Translations under genes and position numbers: made by a program | Virus record (IMG/VR): IMGVR_UViG_3300050029_000114 | Location: 1-64,000 of that record | Source: a virus | Length of the DNA: 64,000 bases | Reading direction: 5' to 3' (one strand) | Notes under the pieces: generated by a model | The model's input: only the letters and a program-made list of their open reading frames with translations | The model's database searches: none | Told to the model about the DNA's origin: nothing | Part shown: positions 7,143 through 55,326 of the stretch, one piece after another | Layout: each line of letters opens with the position of its first letter | Numbering within the stretch: the stretch's first letter is position 1

Positions 7143-7173
7143 CGTGTCTCCGTTCGGTGAGGGTTCGGGTAGA

Positions 7174-9933: not shown

Positions 9934-10344
9934 TCACCTCACTCTCGTGTTATGGCCCGAGACGAATCTCCTCGGGCGGTTCTCGCTGTCGTACTGCTGG
10001 AAGGTCGCCCCGCAGCCGCACTCGCATCCGGTCGATGGGTTCGGCGCGTCGGGGTGGCGCAAGTCTGTCCTTTTGCGATGATGCACGCGGTGGTGGGGCC
10101 GGTCGGTTACCTCTAGGTTTTCTAGCCGGTTGTCGGCCCTGTTCTCGTTGCGATGGTGGACCTCCTCGCCAACGGCTAGGGGTCTACCAAGATGGGCTGA
10201 GGCCACGAGTACGTGCTCGTAGACGTACCCGCGTACGTCCGCGTTCGGGTGGTCCGGCTGCTTGATCAGGACGTAGCCGTCGGGCGTCACTGTCCGGCCT
10301 CCCTTCCAGTTCGGGTTAGCGGCGCCCGGCTGCGAGCGGCCCAT
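9934..10344 (-). CDS. HNH homing endonuclease
   Basis: 136 aa. The N-terminus SQPGAANPNWKGGR and the catalytic core [18 protein letters not shown] (62-79) are typical of free-standing phage HNH endonucleases. A C-terminal CECGCGATF...HNTRV resembles a zinc-finger-like DNA-recognition module. ATG 10344 overlaps the upstream TGA by one base. It sits just upstream of the DUF5131 gene, whose 5' part carries a 10-nt insertion; it may cut there, which is inference. Confidence 0.9.
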   Translation of the reverse strand: MGRSQPGAANPNWKGGRTVTPDGYVLIKQPDHPNADVRGYVYEHVLVASAHLGRPLAVGEEVHHRNENRADNRLENLEVTDRPHHRVHHRKRTDLRHPDAPNPSTGCECGCGATFQQYDSENRPRRFVSGHNTRVR

Positions 10345-10646
10345 CAGTACGCATCCCGGTAGCGGGCTCGCGCTGTCTCGCGCTCGGCTTCCCGCAACCG
10401 TCGTTCGAGGCTGACGCGGGCATCCTCCAACTCGTGGGCTCGGCGTTCAAGGTCGGACACTTGACGTTCAAGGTCGGCGACCTGGCTGTTCCGCCGGGAT
10501 AGCTCGCACTCCAACTCGTAAATCGTGTCGTGGGAGTCCCGCAGGGTCGCGGCTATCCTGGCGGACTCCTTCTCGGCTGTCTCGATGCGCTGGTCGCGCT
10601 CCTCGATGACTTGGCGTAGGTCGGCTATGTCCTCTCGGTCACCCAT
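10344..10646 (-). CDS. Coiled-coil protein, 100 aa
   Basis: Almost the whole protein is a predicted coiled coil, with continuous heptads such as QVADLERQVSDLERRAHEL and many Glu/Arg residues. ATG 10646 overlaps the VRR-NUC gene end by 8 nt. A structural or adaptor role is likely, but the partner is unknown. Confidence 0.75.
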   Translation of the reverse strand: MGDREDIADLRQVIEERDQRIETAEKESARIAATLRDSHDTIYELECELSRRNSQVADLERQVSDLERRAHELEDARVSLERRLREAERETARARYRDAY

Positions 10647-11235
10647 CGGGGTCGCCTTTCGTGATCGTGAACCCGAGCCCGCGTAGGCGTCGGGCGTTGC
10701 TGCGGCGACACTCGCCGCAGTCGTCGTAGCTCATGCCGTCCGGCTGGTCCGGGTGCGTGTACTCCAAGCGGACTAGATGAACCTCGTACTCGATGCCGCC
10801 GATGTCCGGGCCTGCGCCTGGCTTGCCGCACGAGTGGCAGCGCGGCCACGGTCCGGGCCGGTTGAGCCGGGCGCGCCGGTTCGGCTCCGTCAGGATCGCC
10901 TCGATAACCGACCAGTCGGCCGGGGTCCACACGTACGCCCGGACGTGGGCGGCGTTCAAGCTGGCGAGCACTTCCCGCTGGGCGGGTGTCGGCCGGTCCG
11001 GCGGTATCTTCAACTCGGCGGCGATGCAGCCGCCGTGGGCGGGATGCCAGAGGAGCAGGTCGGGCCAGCCGGTGATGTTCGTGCTCGTGATCCACTGGTC
11101 GCCCCTGCCGATGCTGCGCCGGATCGTCAGGAACTGCCAGCCCTGGATGGTGGCGAACTCGGTGACGTGGCGCTGAAATCCGATGTGATTGAGTTTTCCG
11201 CCGCCCATCCCCGGTAGAGGGCGAGGCGCGCTCAC
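10639..11235 (-). CDS. VRR-NUC-type nuclease (PD-(D/E)XK)
   Basis: 198 aa from GTG 11235, which overlaps the endonuclease stop upstream as GTGA. The core GWPDLLLWHPAHGGCIAAE then LK (about 68-91) followed by a TPAQREVLASLN helix is the VRR-NUC signature, in which Asp, Glu and Lys form the catalytic site. A C-terminal Cys pair set (CHSCGK, CGECRR) may bind zinc. Likely a branched-DNA or Holliday-junction nuclease acting in recombination or concatemer processing. Its first 11 residues are identical to those of the HNH-AP2 protein upstream, a sign of an insertion event. Confidence 0.85.
   Translation of the reverse strand: MSAPRPLPGMGGGKLNHIGFQRHVTEFATIQGWQFLTIRRSIGRGDQWITSTNITGWPDLLLWHPAHGGCIAAELKIPPDRPTPAQREVLASLNAAHVRAYVWTPADWSVIEAILTEPNRRARLNRPGPWPRCHSCGKPGAGPDIGGIEYEVHLVRLEYTHPDQPDGMSYDDCGECRRSNARRLRGLGFTITKGDPDG
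11203..11235 (-). repeat. Second copy of the MSAPRPLPGMG start codons
   Basis: Codons 1-11 of the VRR-NUC gene. They encode the same residues as 11835-11867, with differences at third positions of three Pro codons and one Leu codon, and GTG instead of ATG at the start. This is the copy from which the target gene is now translated. Confidence 0.85.
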
Positions 11236-11867
11236 AGTGCCCCCCCTAGGTTGAGCCTGGCGAACTCGCCCCACGCCTCTACTGCGGCCCGGTCGAAGGC
11301 TCGTGCAGCGTCGTCCTCGTTATCGAACAGACCCAGGTACCTTTGACGACCGGCGATCTGGATATTGGCGCGCCATTTACCGCCTGATCGGTCGGTCCAA
11401 CACACGCCCCGGTATCGAGAAGAACCTCCCCGTGACCCTGCGTTAGCGATGTTCTGTGTCCGGGTCGCCGGACGGAGGTTCGATCGGCGGTTATTAAGCC
11501 CGTCTCCATCTCGGTGGTCTATCTCAGTCTTAGGCGGCGCTCCCACGATGAACCGGTGGAGGAGCGCCCATCGCTGCTCAGCTATAAGCCACGCATGGAC
11601 GTAGAAGCGGTCCCCGCTGGTGTGCAACGACCAACTGTGCTCGATCGCCCGATCCCAATCTCCGTCATCCACGTAGGCAACGTGGCCGCTGGGGAGGGAT
11701 AGGACACCGCGTATCGTCTGGCGCGGTGGCTTAGGGGGCCGCTTTGCTCGCTCTCGTTCCCGGTATCGGCGCGCCTTCAGTCGGTTGCGAACGCGTGTCT
11801 CCTCTAGGTCGACGTGCGTCAGTTTCTTCCCGGCGCCCATCCCGGGCAGCGGGCGGGGCGCGCTCAT
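11232..11867 (-). CDS. HNH-AP2 homing endonuclease inserted at the VRR-NUC start
   Basis: 211 aa. HNH core EIDHRDGDGLNNRRSNLRPAT (115-135) plus an AP2 DNA-binding domain (about 151-205, SSRYRGVCWTDRSGGKW...). ATG 11867 has GGGAGGG upstream and overlaps the previous stop as ATGA. Residues 1-18 (MSAPRPLPGMGAGKKLTH) copy the start of the VRR-NUC protein, so the endonuclease seems to have taken over that gene's original start codon and ribosome-binding site. The target gene restarts from a diverged duplicate whose GTG overlaps this stop codon. Confidence 0.9.
   Translation of the reverse strand: MSAPRPLPGMGAGKKLTHVDLEETRVRNRLKARRYRERERAKRPPKPPRQTIRGVLSLPSGHVAYVDDGDWDRAIEHSWSLHTSGDRFYVHAWLIAEQRWALLHRFIVGAPPKTEIDHRDGDGLNNRRSNLRPATRTQNIANAGSRGGSSRYRGVCWTDRSGGKWRANIQIAGRQRYLGLFDNEDDAARAFDRAAVEAWGEFARLNLGGAL
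11835..11867 (-). repeat. First copy of the MSAPRPLPGMG start codons
   Basis: It forms the N-terminus of the HNH-AP2 endonuclease and keeps the original coupling (ATGA) with the gene upstream, which suggests it is the ancestral start of the interrupted gene. Confidence 0.8.
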
Positions 11868-27694: not shown

Positions 27695-27709
27695 ACGATA
27701 GCGCGCTAG
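27695..27709 (-). promoter_or_regulatory. Promoter site i (CTAGCGCGC + TATCGT)
   Basis: -10 TATCGT 27695-27700; the palindrome includes the HNH stop codon (27706). Drives the holin candidate. Confidence 0.7.
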
Positions 27710-28182
27710 TGGGCTCCGCCTTGATTCTTGGCCTTCCATCGCTTAACTCGGCAGTTGTTGCCGCACACCTGCGCGTCCAATCGGAGCGCCGTGATGTCCA
27801 CCCCGCAAACCTCGCACGCGCGCCGTCCCGCCGCTTGCTTGCGTGCTCGGTTCAAGCTGGCGATCCCTTGTCCGACGATGCCTTCGCCGTGTTGGTTACG
27901 AATGATCGAGCCGATCGGATGGTGCTCACGGTTATGGGTCGACGACGTTTTCGGGACGAGATTGCCGAGCGTGTTGTCGGTCTTGTCCTCGTTGTCGTGG
28001 TGGACGTGGAGGGCCGGGTCCGTTAGCAGCCCGGCATCCCACGCCAGCTTGCGGTGCTCGGCCACATACCCGTCCGCCATCGCAAGCGGGTGCGTCGGCT
28101 CGAACAGCATCACGTATCCCTGGGTGCCGATCCTACGCTTGGTCCCGTAGCTCGGGCGCTTGCCGCCCTTACCGGATCGCAC
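27706..28182 (-). CDS. HNH homing endonuclease with C-terminal zinc site (158 aa)
   Basis: GTG 28182, 8 nt after a TATAGT hexamer. HNH core LHVHHDNEDKTDNTLGNLVP (59-78) and a C-terminal zinc module Cys123/126/140/144 (CEVCG...CGNNC). A typical free-standing mobile endonuclease placed between two lysis-related genes. It has its own near-leaderless promoter. Confidence 0.88.
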   Translation of the reverse strand: MRSGKGGKRPSYGTKRRIGTQGYVMLFEPTHPLAMADGYVAEHRKLAWDAGLLTDPALHVHHDNEDKTDNTLGNLVPKTSSTHNREHHPIGSIIRNQHGEGIVGQGIASLNRARKQAAGRRACEVCGVDITALRLDAQVCGNNCRVKRWKAKNQGGAH

Positions 28183-39526: not shown

Positions 39527-39595
39527 CGTGGCTCCTCGCGCTGATAGGGCGGAACTAGCGACGATGCGAGGGGCGCTCGGCCAACTCGACGTTCG

Positions 39596-39668
39596 AGGCG
39601 GAGACGGGACTCGAACCCGTGTCCTCTGGCTTATGAGGCCAACGCGCTACCGACTGCGCCACTCCGCT
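39596..39668 (-). tRNA. tRNA-Met (CAT anticodon)
   Basis: 73-nt cloverleaf without encoded CCA. D arm GCGC-AGTCGGTA-GCGC; anticodon arm TTGGC-CTCATAA-GCCAG; T arm ACGGG-TTCGAGT-CCCGT. Acceptor pairs 2-71 to 7-66 are intact, but position 1-72 is A-C, unpaired. The anticodon stem has three G-C pairs next to the loop (third one C31-G39). CAT could also be tRNA-Ile2 after lysidine modification. Confidence 0.93.
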
Positions 39669-39685: not shown

Positions 39686-39949
39686 TCAGGTGGTCCGGCC
39701 GAGGTATCTGTCGCGCTCGGGGAACGTGCCCGTGCGGATACCGGTCATCAAGTCGTCGGTGATGGTGCCCTCCGGGCTGTAGCCAAGGTCGGCGGGCCAA
39801 TGCTCGATCCTGGCGACCTTGACCGTCTCGTTCGCACGCTTCAAGCGGCGCACCAGTTCCCGGGCCATGCAGTCCGGGCAGTTCGACCGCTCGCATCCGA
39901 CGACGCTCTCGCTGTCGCCCTTCTCCCGCTGGCAGCCGTGGCCGCCCAT
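39686..39949 (-). CDS. Interrupted-target small protein (GGHGCQRE family)
   Basis: 87 aa from ATG 39949. MGGHGCQREKGD...CERSNCPDCMARELVRRLKRA is a motif I know from actinobacteriophages, in which the family normally starts M-x-DYRIVIEA before GGHGC. Here that start lies upstream as GDYRIVIEA (39950-39976) without a standard start codon; an ATC stands where ATG is expected. A complete ATG-containing copy is at 40734, separated by the plus-strand HNH gene. Zinc ligands CERSNCPDC. Confidence 0.75.
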   Translation of the reverse strand: MGGHGCQREKGDSESVVGCERSNCPDCMARELVRRLKRANETVKVARIEHWPADLGYSPEGTITDDLMTGIRTGTFPERDRYLGRTT

Positions 39950-39979
39950 GGCCTCGATAACTATTCTGTAATCTCCGAT
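39950..39979 (-). repeat. Recoded copy of the first 10 codons of the interrupted gene
   Basis: ATC GGA GAT TAC AGA ATA followed by GTT ATC GAG GCC encodes [10 protein letters not shown], matching codons at 40705-40734 in all residues except the first, with seven of ten codons different only in the third base. AAAGAGG lies 6 nt before the ATC. Confidence 0.85.
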
Positions 39980-39997
39980 GTCACACCTCTTTCGGGT

Positions 39998-40003
39998 TAT
40001 TGT
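39998..40003 (+). promoter_or_regulatory. -10 TATTGT for plus-strand HNH gene
   Basis: TATTGT followed by 6 nt and GTG 40010 has the same leaderless spacing as other promoters here. No -35 recognised. Confidence 0.4.
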
Positions 40004-40009
40004 TGCTAG

Positions 40010-40705
40010 GTGAAATCTCGATCGGTTGAGCCTTGCCAGGTCGCCGAATGCGGCGGCCGGTTTTACGCCCGTGGATGGTGCCGGTCACACTACAAGCGGT
40101 GGCAACGCTGGGGCGATCCGCTTGGTGTCGGGCCTCGCCGGGTCCGTCCGCCCCGCCCATGCGCCGTCCCGGGCTGCCCGAACCGTCACGCCGCGCATGG
40201 ATACTGCCAGGCGCACTGGACGCGAGTACGCCGATATGGCGACCCGCGGGCCGATCGACCGATCGCTGTCCCGGCTCCAGATCGTTGCATCGTTGAAGGA
40301 TGCGGGCGAAAACCATTCGGGCATGGCCTCTGCCAAGCGCACTATTCGCGCTTACGCCACACCGGCGGCCTTCGAGCGGATATCCCGATCGGTGCTCCTC
40401 GCCGTGAACTAGCCGATGGCGAGGAGCGGATCGGCAAGGATGGGTACGTCTGGACCCGAAGGGCCGGGCAGAGCGGCTACCAGCATCGGCTCCTGATGGC
40501 TGAGCACTTGGGGCGTCCCCTGCTCGGTAATGAGAATGTCCATCACCGCAACGGGGACAGGGCCGACAACCGGCTTGAAAACCTTGAACTCTGGATTGCT
40601 CCGCAGCCGCCGGGGCAGCGGGTAACCGACACATTGATGTGGGCACGAGAGGTTGTCGCGCTCTACAGCGCCCTTGTGGATAGCGGCGATGCGGTGGTTC
40701 GGTAA
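40010..40705 (+). CDS. Plus-strand HNH homing endonuclease with three zinc modules
   Basis: 231 aa. Three tandem ~30-residue Cys/His units (residues 9-36, 51-79, 93-120; pattern C-x4-C-x8-9-G-x-C-x2-H) precede the HNH core [19 protein letters not shown] (177-195). It is the only convincing plus-strand gene in the window. It lies between two copies of the first ten codons of the gene at 39686, and its TAA stop overlaps codon 10 of the second copy. The three zinc units probably read the target site. Confidence 0.9.
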
Positions 40706-40734
40706 GCCTCAATAACGATCCTGTAGTCACCCAT
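40705..40734 (-). repeat. Original first 10 codons of the interrupted gene
   Basis: ATG at 40734 with AGGAGG 8-9 nt upstream encodes [10 protein letters not shown] and then runs out of frame into the HNH gene, stopping after 23 codons. It retains the original initiation signals. Confidence 0.85.
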
Positions 40735-40781
40735 TATCGGTCCTCCTCGGTTGCTGCGTCTGGCCTGCTGGCGCCAGGGTA

Positions 40782-45349: not shown

Positions 45350-45391
45350 ATCCTACCCCTCGGCTCCCGTTTGTCTAGGGGTTTCTAGCGG
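45350..45391 (-). promoter_or_regulatory. Leaderless TAGACA/TAGGAT promoter (45 kb)
   Basis: -10 TAGGAT 45350-45355, 16-nt spacer, -35 TAGACA 45372-45377, upstream GCTAGAAACCCC. The TAG stop of the HNH gene overlaps the -35 region. Confidence 0.85.
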
Positions 45392-45761
45392 CTGCCGTTA
45401 TCGGCGCCCTCTCCCCTGAGCGGTAAGCCCGATCGTAATCCCGGCGGCACTGGCGGCATCGTCGATGTCCCTTCCGGTTGCGCAGGGTGTTCTCCGGCGT
45501 GTAGTCGTGCCCTTGCGGGCAGGCGGTTTTGCCGTTCGTGTCCCGGCGGTCACCGGGGCGTCCGCTGCGCGTGTTGGCTGATCGGGTCGCGGGGCGGAGG
45601 TGGTCGGGATTGCAGCAGCGGCGGTGCGGGCAGGAGCCTCCACCGGGGCACGCCTTGTCCTCGTTATGGCATTGGTGATCCAAGTCGAGTCCCGGCGGTA
45701 CCGGCCCTTTCTTGAGTCGCTGGCGCTCGGCCAGGTTCCGTTGGCGTGGCTTGCGTGGCAC
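45375..45761 (-). CDS. HNH homing endonuclease overlapping a glycosyltransferase 3' end
   Basis: 128 aa, GTG 45761 with GGAGG just upstream. HNH core LDLDHQCHNEDKACPGGGSC...CCNPDHLRPAT (about 25-59) and a second Cys set (ACPQGHDY, CRQCRRDY). Its first ~98 nt overlap the end of the glycosyltransferase frame, indicating insertion at that gene's 3' end. Confidence 0.85.
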   Translation of the reverse strand: MPRKPRQRNLAERQRLKKGPVPPGLDLDHQCHNEDKACPGGGSCPHRRCCNPDHLRPATRSANTRSGRPGDRRDTNGKTACPQGHDYTPENTLRNRKGHRRCRQCRRDYDRAYRSGERAPITAAARNP

Positions 45762-54732: not shown

Positions 54733-55326
54733 CTAAAGCCAGGCGCGCTCCAGATAGGCGACAGCCCGCTTCGCTACCGCTGGGTCGTCTCCCATAAATC
54801 CGATCGCACGATTGCATGGTCCGCACAGTAGCGCCCTCACTTTCCCGCTCCGGTGACAATGGTCGATATCTAGCGGTCGATCCGTCCGTAGGCAGATCGG
54901 GCACTCGCCCTGCTGGGCGTCGACCAACGCCTGGTATTCCTCGGCGGTCAGTCCTCGCCTGCGGAGCCGGGCATTGAGTCGTACCTGTACCCGATTCGCC
55001 GCGCTCCAGCGGTTCATGGCTGCCGCGAGGCATGGTCGACAGGTCCGCTTCGGCTGGTCCCGAGTCGTATCCCAACCGAACTCGCCCTCGTCCACGAACT
55101 GCTTGCACGACCCGCACCACCGATATCCCTCCGCTGAGTCCGGCCTCGATGGACGAACGGCACGCAACTCGATCCCGCGTCGCTTCTGATCTGCATGGGC
55201 GGCGCATAACCCGTGGGCATGATTCATTCGATCGCACTCGGGGAAGCTGCACTTCTGCCGTCCTTTAGGTCGCTTCGGTTTGCGAGGGGTCTTTGGTCGA
55301 GCGGCGAACTTCTCGGGTCTTTCCAT
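54733..55326 (-). CDS. Recombination endonuclease VII-like HNH nuclease
   Basis: 197 aa. The C-terminal domain (about 124-193) has CPICLRTDRPLDIDHCHRSG and CGPCNRAIGFMGDDPAVAKR, the endonuclease VII zinc/HNH core with Cys142/145/168/171 and His156/158. N-terminal zinc sites (CSFPECDRMN, CGSCKQF, CRPC) extend it. T4 endoVII resolves branched DNA; copies like this in structural clusters are often mobile. ATG 55326 lies 6 nt after TAGAAT. Confidence 0.88.
   Translation of the reverse strand: MERPEKFAARPKTPRKPKRPKGRQKCSFPECDRMNHAHGLCAAHADQKRRGIELRAVRPSRPDSAEGYRWCGSCKQFVDEGEFGWDTTRDQPKRTCRPCLAAAMNRWSAANRVQVRLNARLRRRGLTAEEYQALVDAQQGECPICLRTDRPLDIDHCHRSGKVRALLCGPCNRAIGFMGDDPAVAKRAVAYLERAWL

Follow-up and report, generated by a model that had tools for sequence, protein, structure and literature searches.

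The 64,000-nucleotide stretch of DNA analyzed here (the window) comes from a virus record of 86,051 bp, IMG/VR IMGVR_UViG_3300050029_000114, and contains a small gene that is interrupted after its tenth codon by an HNH endonuclease gene and whose first ten codons occur a second time, largely in other codons, at the head of the gene body. The native codons 1-10 lie on the minus strand at 40705-40734 (ATG GGT GAC TAC AGG ATC GTT ATT GAG GCT) behind a Shine-Dalgarno AGGAGG (40742-40747, minus strand) and are now a stranded 5' fragment. The HNH gene (40010-40705, plus strand, 231 residues) runs opposite to the small gene, and the last A of its TAA stop is a one-base overlap with native codon 10. 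Its product matches HNH_3 (PF13392, E 2.7e-8) above the family cut-off as well as many PHROG HNH families, and carries three CxxxC...CxxH-type repeats N-terminal to HNH_3. The second copy of codons 1-10 (39950-39979, minus strand; ATC GGA GAT TAC AGA ATA GTT ATC GAG GCC) has the Shine-Dalgarno-like AAAGAGGTG (39984-39992, minus strand) at ribosome-binding distance, 4 nucleotides ahead of its ATC, and continues in frame into ATGGGCGGCCACGGCTGCCAG, i.e. into the gene body (39686-39949, minus strand; ATG GGC GGC CAC GGC TGC CAG CGG GAG, translated MGGHGCQRE...), the frame ending at 39686. The body has conserved Cys residues and belongs to no recognized family, the target protein having no match in Pfam, PHROG or solved structures. 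Seven of the ten codons differ between the two copies, every change being at the third base, and the start codon is among the seven (ATG to ATC in the recoded copy). On re-reading of the sequence, the positions and letters of the two blocks and of the HNH open reading frame (ORF), and the count of seven third-base differences, agree with those of an initial annotation.

Although the duplicated block is short, the chance similarity of a ten-codon stretch can be regarded as refuted. The window contains exactly two matches to GGNGAYTACMGNATHGTNATHGARGC, a degenerate pattern for GDYRIVIEA, as against 0.00 in 100 shuffles, and among 2.9 million viral contigs the pattern is found at one locus only, which is an uninterrupted relative of the gene. 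When left and right flanks from other HNH loci are paired at random, just 2 of 1500 trials give a ten-codon window with at least nine identical residues. Both copies, moreover, agree with the N-terminus seen in independent relatives.

The same arrangement occurs a second time in the window, at a VRR_NUC gene spanning 11867-10639, where the claim of the initial annotation was checked and holds. Here all of the parts are on the minus strand: native codons 1-14 (11826-11867), now reading in frame into the HNH ORF (MSAPRPLPGMGAGK); an HNH_3 plus AP2-like endonuclease gene (11232-11825); a recoded copy of codons 1-14 (11194-11235); and the VRR_NUC gene body (10639-11193). The endonuclease gene ends with a TGA that overlaps the start codon of the restored gene (11235, GTG AGC GCG CCT ...), a GTG with which VSAPRPLPGMGGGK, the head of the VRR_NUC gene, begins; this recoded copy thus has a normal start codon, unlike the ATC of the small gene. 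The description of the two endonucleases as unrelated in architecture stands only in part: the N-terminal Cys/His repeats of one and the C-terminal AP2-like domain of the other are indeed different, but both proteins contain PF13392. GC content at third codon positions (GC3) is 0.50 in the recoded block of the small gene, 0.68 in its HNH gene and 0.92 in the gene body, with a sharp step at the junction; the corresponding values at the VRR_NUC locus are 0.62, 0.68 and 0.91, the lower GC3 there extending to about codon 20. Both recoded blocks are therefore compositional islands that resemble the element rather than the target gene. The VRR_NUC case is also recovered by a whole-window scan for translated duplicates, whose remaining matches are mainly low-complexity and repeat-protein noise. 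No flanking duplicate is found at the other HNH or endonuclease VII type ORFs of the window (9934-10344, 27706-28182, 45375-45761 and 54733-55326), and a motif scan of the remaining 22 kb of the record finds no further HNH gene.

The initial annotation had proposed comparing the 5' end of the small gene in genomes with and without the insertion, and saw its interpretation as failing if relatives carried two ancient full-length paralogues side by side. The gene is present in four viral contigs (L001-L004), 59-79% identical, each with a single uninterrupted 5' end that reads (M/V)G-x-(Y/F)-...-GGHGCQR(E/D), and no paralogue adjoins it in any of the four. The locus is thus polymorphic for presence and absence of the HNH gene and, since all four relatives have a single uninterrupted gene, the insertion is the derived state. 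Two similar starts flanking an HNH gene could also be left by two old side-by-side paralogues, one of them eroding after the HNH gene entered between them; however, the far side holds codons 1-10 only, directly abutting the HNH stop codon, and with single genes and no adjacent paralogue in the relatives this history is most improbable. Among phage records no relative of the target gene is found beyond chance, and the closest relatives of the window HNH gene in the collections searched are only about 40-47% identical, too distant for tracing the recoded block alongside this HNH gene. The VRR_NUC gene likewise has no relative in phage records, and its sole relative among viral contigs, L013, lacks the N-terminal stretch, so that no empty-site comparison is available for that case.

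Phage HNH genes often lie in introns, which would favor reading the insertion as a group I intron or another spliced or bypassed sequence, of which the second copy would be a part. That reading is nevertheless highly unlikely: the whole window has no Rfam match besides a transfer RNA (tRNA) and none to a group I intron, the HNH gene is on the opposite strand, and the recoded copy, which has a ribosome-binding site of its own, makes the gene end complete again.

The clearest view of such an insertion comes from the terminase gene of the Gordonia phage Kabocha, which carries an HNH insertion that is absent from Gray, Hanem and others. Compared with Hanem, the Kabocha terminase region is identical at 1075 of 1075 nucleotides to the left and 353 of 353 to the right of an 813-bp insert consisting of a recoded terminase tail and an HNH gene. 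The last 18 terminase codons of Kabocha (CTT TCG GGA GCC TTC GCA GAA GCG GCC TTC GCG AGA CGG GGT AGA CTA TTG GCA TGA) differ from the same tail in Hanem and Gray (CTC AGC GGT GCG TTT GCC GAA GCC GCA TTC GCA CGA CGA GGA AGG TTG TTG GCC TGA) at 15 of 18 codons with no residue changed. The HNH gene follows directly, overlapping the stop of the recoded tail (ATGA), and the native tail is stranded behind it with a single mismatch to Gray in 57 nucleotides, at the first (junction) codon. Because the flanks are identical, the codon differences cannot have accumulated in place, and the block and the HNH gene arrived together. The sister phages have one terminase, which again argues against old paralogues. 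The full recoded tail is found in no phage record besides Kabocha. A further phage, ChisanaKitsune, is without the HNH gene and has the first seven recoded codons exactly (CTT TCG GGA GCC TTC GCA GAA), the rest being native; judged from its sequence, this tail reads as a recombinant allele such as would be expected of a resistant conversion product, which makes ChisanaKitsune a candidate for a homing-resistance allele.

Comparison of left and right flanks at 173 HNH_3 loci from phages, viral contigs and prokaryotic genomes places these cases in a wider setting. Among 800 swapped flank pairs the maximum score is 57, with two at 45 or above, and a control of 143 non-HNH pairs reaches 54. The Kabocha terminase end scores 82. 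Higher or comparable scores are given by the start of a DNA polymerase I gene in L073 (126; 15 of 20 codons changed), a site within a gene in L044/L045 (93; 12 of 16 codons changed in L044), a gene end in Actinomadura, L155 (76), and a gene end duplicated around the HNH gene of L172 (2139-2945; 182). The L155 gene presumably resembles TROVE/Ro60, a likeness judged by eye only. The end of a major capsid gene in L149 scores 57, the same as the highest null value, though the copies there reach the stop codon on both sides. A start or stop codon is reached by the copy in all cases except L044/L045, though the search set no gene-end condition. In L044/L045 (2364-3170) a long gene encloses the HNH gene, the 21-codon overlap is recoded, and the long frame is open across the HNH region in another frame. 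L245 is marginal; L076 was dismissed as a second HNH copy, L098 as distant paralogues and L070 because the match is not adjacent. A further viral scan yields no clear new case. Recurrence at unrelated genes, together with the one clean insertion that separates Kabocha from Hanem and Gray, bears out the earlier suggestion of a general mechanism by which an HNH insertion brings with it a gene end recoded at third positions.

Taken together, the small gene very probably received a free-standing HNH homing-endonuclease element that inserted after codon 10 and restored its target with a synonymously different end. The mobile unit would comprise the HNH gene and a replacement gene end, here codons 1-10 in a different synonymous spelling together with a ribosome-binding site, and its insertion would strand the native codons 1-10 beyond the HNH gene while the element's own copy comes to head the gene body. 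The HNH protein presumably cleaves uninterrupted copies of the gene, at the insertion point or close to it, and repair of the break would copy the element into the cut gene. Homing endonuclease genes are ordinarily protected because their own insertion splits the site. With a restored end in the native spelling, by contrast, an intact target would form again at the new junction, so that a different spelling would be needed, and the synonymous changes may thus keep the restored gene safe from renewed cutting. Insertion near a gene end would keep the carried piece short. It is about an even proposition that these loci represent a recurrent class of natural phage home-and-rescue drives, i.e. HNH elements that target sites near either end of conserved genes and in which the restored terminus has been selected to be synonymously different and so makes the carrier immune, partly recoded HNH-free alleles such as that of ChisanaKitsune being resistance alleles.

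Codon differences in seven cases were compared with independent draws from host codon usage. An excess is clear in L073 (P 0.001) and moderate in L044 (P 0.026), borderline in L155 (P 0.052) and marginal in Kabocha (P 0.06), and there is none in the VRR_NUC window case and in L149. Several points weigh against the reading as a homing element that restores its target. Four of the seven cases are without significant excess and a fifth, L155, is borderline, so that ordinary donor divergence is enough to explain them. Recoding is not universal, since L172 is changed at just 1 of 27 codons, and the pattern is found at only about 6 of the 173 HNH_3 loci. For the window copy of the small gene, expression is uncertain: initiation at ATC, a start at codon 11 (ATG), a dead gene, weak expression and an assembly error are all possible, and because this copy starts with ATC the term "rescue" is provisional for it.

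A rival history is a hybrid gene formed by horizontal transfer only. The block would then be how a diverged phage naturally spells the 5' end of this gene, brought in by repair along with the neighboring HNH gene, and its codon differences would be ordinary divergence with no role in immunity. Such transfer of a gene end is the published explanation of comparable fungal mitochondrial cases (PMC3630166), natural codon divergence in the terminase family extends to about half of identical residues (51 of 104 between Gray and GMA6), and the composition of the recoded blocks differs from that of the gene bodies. However, at this tail FlyingTortilla has 8 and UBSmoodge 4 of 18 codons changed, fewer than the 15 of 18 in Kabocha, no other phage record supplies a donor for the full tail, of which ChisanaKitsune has the first part, and L073 and L044 exceed independent draws. 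A donor with other codon preferences could yield the excess in L073 and L044 too, and selection for recoding is accordingly put forward as a proposal. Transfer without an immunity role is a real possibility, if somewhat short of a probable one.

The window has some further features. A 249-residue frame antisense to the HNH gene (39981-40730, minus strand) runs from a GTG within native codons 1-3 to a TGA just before the recoded ATC; it could provide translational coupling to the ATC or could be a by-product of high GC. The sole tRNA gene of the window, a tRNA-Met(CAT) at 39595-39668 on the minus strand, is directly downstream of the interrupted gene. A palindromic motif around AACTATAGCGCGCTAGTGG is repeated between genes at 7156, 20950, 27690, 37974, 39000, 45033 and 47946 and resembles a phage operator or promoter family.

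If the proposal is correct, free-standing phage endonucleases that supply a new gene end need neither an intron nor an intein to invade coding genes, and recoded rescue, known from the design of synthetic gene drives, has also evolved in nature. A recoded terminal duplicate would then point, as a sequence signature, to the probable target site of an uncharacterized HNH enzyme, whose cleavage specificity becomes directly testable. Kabocha, Hanem and ChisanaKitsune, all listed as isolates on one Gordonia strain, would on sequence grounds provide a donor allele, a sensitive one and a possibly resistant one.

Among known systems, the T4-type free-standing homing endonucleases and split genes covered in a review, e.g. 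mobE in Aeh1 nrdA, mobA in T4 39/60 and the seg genes (PMC2988022), resemble the present cases in that a free-standing HNH or GIY-YIG gene has entered phage genes or their vicinity and is spread by co-conversion. They differ in that the gene is split or the site is in a neighboring gene. Term searches found no passage on recoded gene-end duplicates in that review, in a phage nuclease-boundary study (PMC10448857) or in a Skunavirus HNH study (PMC12724721), a partial coverage of the literature. The HomeR home-and-rescue drive, a synthetic Cas9 system in flies (PMC7968924), likewise cuts a target gene, copies itself in and restores the gene with a re-coded, cleavage-immune end, the immunity of the phage genes being presumed; the two are alike in logic and unrelated.

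The closest published parallel found is that of the fungal mitochondrial mobile ORFs of Allomyces atp6 and Glomus atp6, atp9, cox2 and nad3, which bring in foreign C-termini that differ mostly by synonymous changes, the native end being left behind as a stranded piece (PMC3630166). Common to both are an endonuclease ORF near a gene end and a duplicated terminus, of which one copy is joined to the gene and the other is stranded and relative-like. A carried synonymous gene end joined to the gene is found in the window (7 of 10 codons) and in Kabocha (15 of 18), and a stranded native end like that of insert-free relatives is found in Kabocha, the window having no relative that is close enough. 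The fungal ORFs encode LAGLIDADG or GIY-YIG enzymes, are in organelles and affect 3' ends only in that report (PMC3630166), whereas the phage elements encode HNH_3 enzymes, mostly zinc-finger-like, affect 5' as well as 3' ends and are found on either strand. The principle is thus the same as that of known mobile ORFs, and what is new is the phage setting and the use of both gene ends.
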